DNA of 34,674 nt. Origin: Patescibacteria group bacterium. Lineage in GTDB: Bacteria > Patescibacteriota > Minisyncoccia > Phycocordibacterales > SIBU01. The stretch lies in contig JAZJZC010000001.1 in NCBI GenBank assembly GCA_040390045.1, forward strand, positions 1 to 34,674. Direction: 5' to 3'. Under the pieces are notes generated by a model that saw only the letters and a list, made by a program, of their open reading frames with translations, did no database searches and was not told the DNA's origin. Positions 64 through 18,392 of the stretch are shown piece after piece; position 1 is the first letter of the stretch; the number at the start of each line of letters is the position of its first letter. Both the position numbers and the translations under genes were made by a program.

Positions 64-76
64 GTGGATATCCTAA

Positions 77-361
77 TTATTTTTTCTTGCCAACTACACT
101 TACAGTCTTCTTAACCTTCGTCGTATTATCAAAACCTCGTTTTCGTGTGTGGCCATATGCAACAACTCCTTCCTTGAGAGCAAAGAGGGTGTGATCCTTT
201 CCCAAACCAACGTTTTGACCCGCAAGAATACGAGTGCCACGCTGACGAACAATTACAGAACCAATCTGAGCAGATTCGCCTCCATAAAGCTTAATACCAA
301 GGTATTTTGGATTTACATCGGTAAGGTTTTTCGCTGTTCCGCCGGCCTTCTTTGTTGCCAT
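77..361 (-). CDS. rpmA: 50S ribosomal protein L27 (bL27)
   Basis: This is a 94-residue protein of the usual L27 length. The N-terminus [12 protein letters not shown] and the segments [21 protein letters not shown] and [14 protein letters not shown] are characteristic of the family. L27 sits at the peptidyl-transferase side of the large subunit, where its basic N-terminal tail reaches the active site. There is no N-terminal extension of the Firmicute type that needs proteolysis. The partner gene rplU (L21) is not next to it here: the upstream neighbour is a divergent membrane protein gene starting 50 bases away. The start ATG is the only reasonable one. The 3' side lacks an obvious terminator in this orientation. 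Confidence 0.97.
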
Positions 362-850: not shown

Positions 851-925
851 GCGTCTTTAGCTCAGTGGTAGAGCGTTCCGTTCACATCGGAAAGGCCGTA
901 AGTTCGATCCTTACAAGACGCACCA
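851..925 (+). tRNA. tRNA-Val (anticodon CAC)
   Basis: A full cloverleaf folds. The acceptor is GCGTCTT/AAGACGC (851-857 with 915-921), the D-stem GCTC/GAGC, and the anticodon stem TTCCG/CGGAA (876-880 with 888-892) with loop TTCACAT, so the anticodon is CAC at 883-885 (codon GTG). The T-stem is GTAAG/CTTAC with loop TTCGATC. Discriminator A922 is followed by an encoded CCA (923-925). Confidence 0.97.
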
Positions 926-971
926 ATTTAATTTCTACTTGTAAAAAAATCTCATTTGGATAATACTAAAT

Positions 972-1158
972 ATCCGCGATGGAGTGGCAATCGCGTCTGT
1001 GACTGTGTACTGGAGTTACACCAACACAGAGGCGCCGAGTGTGCGTTGGATTTTACTCCAAAATCTACAAGGAGGTATATCCACGCTCGGCGCTAACCCT
1101 TTTCTGGATGTTCTTTTTCTTGAATCCAAACCGCGAAAACTATTCGCGGTTTTCTTTT
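972..1158 (+). ncRNA. Candidate structured non-coding RNA with complementary hairpin loops (no known family recognised)
   Basis: This RNA of about 186 nt lies between two tRNA genes. A plausible promoter is TTGTAA (939-944), 16 bases, TAATAC (961-966). Hairpin 1 (975-995) is CGCGAT/ATCGCG with loop GGAGTGGCA. Hairpin 2 (997-1029) is CTGTG/CACAG enclosing GTGTA/TACAC with loop CTGGAGT. Hairpin 3 is a 12-bp stem (1032-1043 with 1082-1093, one G-T pair) that encloses GATTTT/AAAATC with loop ACTCC (1055-1059) and the unpaired AAGGAGGT. A terminator ends the unit. The reading frames across it look non-coding. It does not match signature motifs of RNase P RNA, tmRNA or SRP RNA, and its separate hairpins differ from the rod shape of 6S RNA. 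Folding was done by eye. Confidence 0.6.
1128..1158 (+). terminator. Intrinsic terminator of the intergenic RNA
   Basis: A perfect 10-bp stem AAACCGCGAA/TTCGCGGTTT (1128-1137 with 1143-1152, loop AACTA) is followed by TCTTTT. Confidence 0.85.
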
Positions 1159-1216
1159 ACCCAAAATTTGCCGACTTTAATAAATCTGTTACTATTCTCG
1201 TTGAAACAACGGGTTA

Positions 1217-1287
1217 CGGAGTGTAGTATAACGGTAGTATGTACGATTCGGGTTCGTACGATCCGGGTTCAAATCCCGGCACTCCGA
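1217..1287 (+). tRNA. tRNA-Pro (anticodon CGG), CCA not encoded
   Basis: The acceptor is CGGAGTG/CACTCCG (1217-1223 with 1280-1286). The anticodon stem TACGA/TCGTA (1242-1246 with 1254-1258) carries loop TTCGGGT, so the anticodon is CGG at 1249-1251 with G37. The T-arm is CCGGG/CCCGG with loop TTCAAAT. After the discriminator A1287 the DNA reads CAA rather than CCA, so the tail must be added by a nucleotidyltransferase, unlike the other two tRNAs here. Confidence 0.95.
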
Positions 1288-1329
1288 CAATAAATCAGAC
1301 CTCTGATCCAGGGACTTTTAAAAAACCTA

Positions 1330-18113: not shown

Positions 18114-18275
18114 ACTCCTTGGAAAAATTTTTGCAGGAGTATCTCCCTCGGCTAAAACTTTTCCGTCGAAAAGTTTTGCCTGGGCACCGGCTCGAAAAAT
18201 TTTCTGCTGAAAATTTTATACTCCGCCGTTCGATTCCTGACGTAAGCTCGTTTAGAGCTTACGTCAGGAATCGAA
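18114..18275. repeat. Hairpin array upstream of the NUDIX gene
   Basis: Four consecutive palindromes: ACTCCT/AGGAGT around AAAAATTTTT (18114-18140); AAAACTTTTC/GAAAAGTTTT with loop CGTC (18154-18177), extended by GGC/GCC over a bulged T; AAAATTTTC/GAAAATTTT with loop TGCT (18196-18217); and a perfect 21-bp palindrome (18229-18249 with 18255-18275, loop GTTTA). The last contains the tRNA T-arm sequence GGTTCGATTCCTG in both orientations. No gene lies in this part of the gap 18053-18317. Confidence 0.65.
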
Positions 18276-18317: not shown

Positions 18318-18392
18318 TGGTGTCCCTAGCAGGAATCGAACCTGCACCACTTCCTTCGGAGGGAAGTATTCTATCCATTAGACTATAGGGAC
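18318..18392 (-). tRNA. tRNA-Arg (anticodon CCG)
   Basis: On the minus strand the acceptor is GTCCCTA/TAGGGAC. The anticodon stem CTTCC/GGAAG has loop CTCCGAA, so the anticodon is CCG (codon CGG). The T-arm is GCAGG/CCTGC with loop TTCGATT. The discriminator is A and CCA is encoded (18320-18318). Confidence 0.96.

Follow-up and report, generated by a model that had tools for sequence, protein, structure and literature searches.

The window, by which we mean the whole stretch of DNA analysed, covers bases 1 to 34,674 of contig C1 from a genome of 952,680 bases (8 contigs, 99.93% complete). This genome is Patescibacteria-like: it is small, and the sole relative found in a public collection for its transporter gene is labelled Candidatus Parcubacteria. 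Near the beginning of the window, flanked by tRNA-Val and tRNA-Pro just as the initial annotation had described, is a segment from which a small folded RNA is very probably made. The features of the locus are:

851-925, plus strand: tRNA-Val (CAC), CCA encoded; the first terminator after it lies at 1128-1152
959-964, plus strand: weak −10-like box GATAAT without a good −35, read from the sequence; it would start the RNA near 970-972
969-975, plus strand: AAUAUCC, 5′ strand of a possible closing stem P1 (partner 1106-1112), probable only in the 968-1113 core
976-994, plus strand: hairpin P2, stem GCGAU/AUCGC, loop GGAGUGGCA (981-989) with GGAGU at 981-985
996-1030, plus strand: hairpin P3, stems UCUGUG/CACAGA and GUGUA/UACAC, loop CUGGAGU (1010-1016) with GGAGU at 1012-1016
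1031-1094, plus strand: arm P4, a 13-bp stem (1031-1043/1082-1094) whose apex joins CUCC (1056-1059) with GGAG (1071-1074)
1106-1112, plus strand: GGAUGUU, 3′ strand of P1, pairing with 969-975
1128-1158, plus strand: intrinsic terminator from the terminator scan, stem AAACCGCGAA/TTCGCGGTTT with a T-rich tail
1168-1195, plus strand: probable own promoter of tRNA-Pro (TTGCCG, 16 nt, TACTAT), from sequence and comparison with the locus L066 of congener G002
1217-1288, plus strand: tRNA-Pro (CGG), the downstream flank of the RNA region

The anatomy of the locus and its terminator are directly visible. The latter is as strong as first proposed, with a 10-bp stem at 1128-1152 followed by the T-rich tail; if a weak overlap within P4 is disregarded, it is the sole plus-strand terminator after tRNA-Val, and the terminator scan returned none between this tRNA and the RNA. 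Of the promoter that had also been proposed, only the weak GATAAT stands, since a consensus promoter scan found none on the plus strand upstream of the RNA and GATAAT alone resembles a −10 box. The probable promoter of tRNA-Pro has its −10 region, CTG(T/C)TACTATTC, in common with G002, so that tRNA-Pro could be expressed independently of the transcript that carries the RNA. Because no terminator separates the RNA from tRNA-Val, the free-standing RNA originally envisaged is no more likely than a 3′ trailer of the tRNA-Val transcript.

Three G-U pairs on the plus strand (971-1110, 1031-1094 and 1040-1085), which become A-C mismatches on the minus strand, together with the T-tract identify the plus strand as the RNA strand. 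A coding reading was rejected: ORFs here are either short or continue past the terminator into tRNA-Pro, and no Shine-Dalgarno (SD)-start arrangement was found for the ORFs over the RNA region.

Predicted fold and its chance background

Arms P2, P3 and P4 follow one another almost without spacer, and the predicted fold beats its dinucleotide shuffles (z = −5.35; none of 200 as good), which with the terminator scan bears out a terminated, strongly folded RNA. The prediction comes from one known sequence, so covariation cannot be drawn on to prove it. GGAGT at 981-985 and 1012-1016 and ACTCC at 1055-1059 lie where they had been reported, and the first two of the three hairpins described are real and perfect; the third, however, is the 13-bp arm with a paired apex. 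Its CUCC pairs with GGAG at a probability of 0.97-0.99 in five differently cut transcripts, and neither the free ACTCC loop of the initial annotation nor its unpaired AAGGAGGT (1069-1076), which contains that GGAG, survives. In loop 2 the GGAGU is predicted to be open at 0.96-1.00 in its first three positions and at about 0.50 and 0.75 in the last two, and pairing probabilities leave the GGAGU of loop 1 partly open. The closing stem P1 reaches a probability of 0.79-0.99 in the 968-1113 core and about 0.1-0.3 with flanks or terminator.

The suggestion that ACUCC kisses loop 1 or loop 2 keeps its footing insofar as these are exact 5-nt complements, but such contacts are not favoured. Presenting ACUCC as a 5-nt loop gives −26.3 instead of −31.3 kcal/mol, that is, 5.0 worse, and the isolated loop duplexes with ACUCC are worth −5.4 (loop 2) and −6.1 kcal/mol (loop 1) before any loop-joining penalty; kissing is therefore break-even at best, bearing in mind that the pairing probabilities come from nested folds, which cannot score it. 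In this model ACUCC and GGAGG would be the two strands of the third arm, and their complementarity is most simply explained as serving intramolecular folding.

By chance, two loops of 9 and 7 nt would have a 5-mer in common with a frequency of 1.6%, and the probability that a random 5-nt loop complements both is 2e-5, a joint figure that takes loop 3 as given. This coincidence is suggestive; genome-wide it is not significant, because the third 'loop' is not favoured and structured spacers are very many. Among 1202 intergenic windows of the same genome (both strands; mean z −2.25, sd 2.8), the candidate ranks 146th (minus strand) and 167th (plus strand). With structured spacers this common, stability by itself is no proof of function.

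Search for relatives and the locus in congeners

Only the three tRNAs of the window match Rfam. Under lax thresholds the best sub-threshold match of the candidate is STnc180 (15.9 of 50 bits) and the best E-value, 0.59, is at chance level; nothing reaches a gathering cut-off, in agreement with the earlier view that no known family fits. The Rfam scan of the genome took in all but about 90 kb. Searches by blastn returned no homolog in 98 relatives and nothing useful in phages. A single-sequence covariance model (R1), of a kind that would miss strongly diverged relatives, recovered only the candidate itself in 297 and 397 genomes of the order (overlapping samples) and no homolog in 384 genomes of the class and 39 relatives under permissive filters, so the comparison with related genomes yielded no believable relative. 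Individual R1 matches were rejected as chance: one in G239 (E 7.6e-4) falls on the strand opposite a proline-rich ORF, one in G630 lies within an enolase-like gene and one in G303 inside a membrane-protein gene. A pattern scan of IMG/VR gave 45 chance matches to a 15-mer, without R1 support, and zero to an 18-mer, and the genome itself holds no paralogs beyond chance-level 11-18-mers. A link to the acceptor stem of tRNA-Pro (CGGAGTG/CACTCCG, which has GGAGT/ACTCC) was also dismissed, its alignment (score 7) not rising above background.

The neighbourhood in congener G002 equals that of the window, with rpmA, a 149-aa protein homologous to the 140-aa protein found here, tRNA-Val and tRNA-Pro (gene names at the G002 locus were assigned by reading translations). 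There the place of the RNA between the two tRNAs is taken by a 291-aa methyltransferase-like gene, and the transcribed content behind tRNA-Val thus changes between congeners. This ORF (L066, 624-1499, minus strand) starts 1-2 bases behind tRNA-Val(CAC), so that 3′ processing of the tRNA could leave a leaderless mRNA. Congener G001 has tRNA-Pro close to the transporter gene, and the RNA is absent there. From these two loci and the searches above, the RNA is species-specific as far as can be seen.

Structured RNAs behind tRNA genes

Two unannotated structured RNA families with strong covariation, neither recognised by Rfam, are located immediately downstream of many tRNA genes. Type A is a structured RNA of about 125 nt, typically found 30-75 nt behind many tRNA genes. 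It is present in 67 of the 98 genomes of the order searched (this one included), and compensatory changes affect 27 of the 36 pairs in an alignment of 11 copies; of the 19 best type A loci in other genomes, most have a same-strand tRNA shortly upstream, typically at 30-75 bases. Type B, of about 93 nt, carries a conserved GTACTG-(stem)-CTGTAAG-(stem) block, a covarying long stem and an anti-T-arm start. Its alignment of 9 copies has 22 pairs, 15 of them with compensatory changes; 9 strong copies sit behind tRNA genes and weaker ones elsewhere. Examples of both types are:

18120-18244 of the window, minus strand: type A, behind tRNA-Arg(CCG) (18318-18392, minus strand)
L019:11768-11893 and L039:9061-9186: type A
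L048:14738-14862 and L055:7446-7572, minus strand: type A
L019:103-195 and L025:3264-3356, minus strand: type B
L018:12851-12943, L049:5586-5678, L056:6974-7067 and L019:12757-12849: type B, among others

In both types the start is the reverse complement of the T-arm/acceptor of the same preceding tRNA, and where the element ends, the tRNA end is often partly repeated in direct orientation. The element's own tRNA is matched better than any other isotype in 17 of 39 elements, against a chance expectation of about 1. As with the tRNAs, the tmRNA (G000:C2:84088-84489, minus strand) is followed at +68..91 by a strong match to the reverse complement of its 3′ end, with a score of 21 against 8 in the control.

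Competing readings and proposed biogenesis

The candidate resembles types A and B in lying behind a tRNA gene, in size and in strong folding: it starts about 45-50 nt behind the tRNA, falls within 100-190 nt and shares GTGTACTG with type B. It differs, however, in having neither the anti-T-arm segment nor the conserved blocks. No profile match to either type appears even at E 1000 (nhmmer), nor with the models R2 and R3, and the candidate has no segment reverse-complementary to the 3′ end of tRNA-Val, the feature that marks both types (score 7 against 7.6 in the control). That it is a diverged member of either is largely refuted, and we regard it as most unlikely. Extremely unlikely, too, is a diverged housekeeping RNA (SRP RNA, 6S, RNase P or tmRNA), a reading that is mostly refuted. 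It gains some appeal from the fact that SRP RNA (RF00169) is recognised neither in this genome nor in 60 related ones, and that RNase P RNA falls below the Rfam gathering cut-off here. Against it, the tmRNA is located elsewhere, as is the RNase P RNA core GAGGAAAGTCCGAACACT (G000:C4, about 18966, minus strand; L032), and an RNA of this kind should not be missing in congeners. Neither Ffh nor FtsY was found in the genome by tblastn with E. coli queries, which did find the controls trmD, rplS and ftsE; the SRP pathway seems lost, so an SRP RNA is not needed, and the candidate lacks the AGCA of the helix 8 motif (GNRA loop plus AGCA). The identity with 6S was tested via Rfam only. As for an RNA that titrates CsrA/RsmA, or one that acts on SD pairing as a decoy or in trans, both analogies had been drawn from GGA in two loops, with ANGGA in loop 1, and from the likeness of AAGGAGGU and ACUCC to SD and anti-SD sequences. 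CsrB/RsmZ RNAs likewise carry GGA in hairpin loops, but the candidate has only two such loops and no Rfam match: ANGGA occurs in a loop at loop 1 alone, loop 2 reads CUGGA, and the third GGA is paired (p about 0.98-1.0), as is the GGAG of AAGGAGGU. A search for csrA (PF02599) at E 0.001 found none in this genome or three congeners and matched its positive controls (E. coli, B. subtilis, T. maritima and the relative G005). The 16S 3′ end (G000:C1, about 323350-323382, minus strand; L030), covered by the Rfam SSU match up to the end of the model, reads ...GCTGCTCGTGGAGTATTTCAATTG / ...AACAAGGCACGGGTAGCGGAAGCTGCTCGTGGAGTATTTCAATTG without CCTCC, and GGAGG occurs at −20..−5 before 0.4% of 520 ATG-start genes (background 0.2%). 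Without CCTCC in 16S or SD sequences before genes, GGAG and ACUCC cannot be read as SD and anti-SD signals; that some candidate phyla have lost the anti-SD was already known (PMC10783764). For this genome both analogies are refuted unless csrA sits in an unassembled gap, and we find such a role barely conceivable. A −10 box was also seen within 20 bases of many starts, as leaderless mRNAs would have.

A conformational switch, in which ACUCC would leave GGAG, kiss the GGAGU of loop 1 or 2 and expose AAGGAGGU upon a ligand, protein or partner RNA, draws on the exact complementarity to both loops, on its low joint chance and on an opening cost close to what the duplexes return. The nested structure nonetheless wins at the probabilities given above, within folds that cannot score kissing; there is no gene downstream for an exposed AAGGAGGU to control, and no homologs were found. 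We judge this switch improbable. Guanidine-II (mini-ykkC) riboswitches are kissing-loop RNAs with adjacent hairpins that carry the same loop motif, ACGR. The candidate also has two adjacent hairpins with an identical loop motif, but that motif is GGAGU, no regulated gene lies downstream and Rfam reports no match. Very doubtful, in our opinion, is a lineage-specific RNA switch, in a bacterium without SD translation, whose ACUCC would pair either with the GGAGG of its own arm or with one of two identical kissing loops. The main rival is plainer: a hairpin-rich, neutral palindromic spacer with no function beyond terminating the tRNA-Val transcript. It agrees with the strongly folded intergenic background, where about 150 of the 1202 windows outscore the candidate, with conservation found nowhere by blastn or R1 and with the protein gene that replaces the RNA in G002. 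The perfect arms, the plus-strand G-U pairs, the clean terminator and the recurrence of TGGAGT in the loops, on the other hand, suggest some selection, and we hold a neutral spacer to be possible, if rather unlikely.

The reading we put forward, to which we give about an even chance, is a species-specific structured non-coding RNA of about 190 nt (about 970-1158), arising as a 3′ trailer of tRNA-Val or as the product of a weak promoter; its transcription, processing and function are what we infer. The missing terminator behind tRNA-Val, the poor promoter of the RNA and the apparent own promoter of tRNA-Pro argue for the trailer. Most likely, the tRNA-Val transcript would run on to 1158 and end at the RNA's terminator, and tRNA-Val maturation would release the 3′ trailer as the RNA; a weak promoter of its own would be the alternative route. 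The three adjacent hairpin arms would then form, with the GGAGU of loops 1 and 2 staying largely open. A further trans-acting role may be imagined, for instance as a tRNA-trailer sponge RNA. In E. coli, 3′ETS-leuZ, a tRNA 3′ external transcribed spacer of 53 nt, serves as a sponge for RyhB and RybB (PMC8166272). Like it, the candidate lies directly behind a tRNA with no terminator between and would be freed by tRNA maturation; unlike it, the candidate is about 190 nt long, highly folded, predicted from sequence and carried by a Patescibacteria-like host.

By itself, the candidate is one more orphan structured RNA, and resemblances such as 'GGA in loops' or 'anti-SD' are meaningless in an organism without CsrA and without SD/anti-SD pairing. 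The region behind tRNA genes in such reduced genomes is also especially rich in unannotated structured RNAs, among which type A may represent a widespread undescribed RNA family or a tRNA-targeting element.
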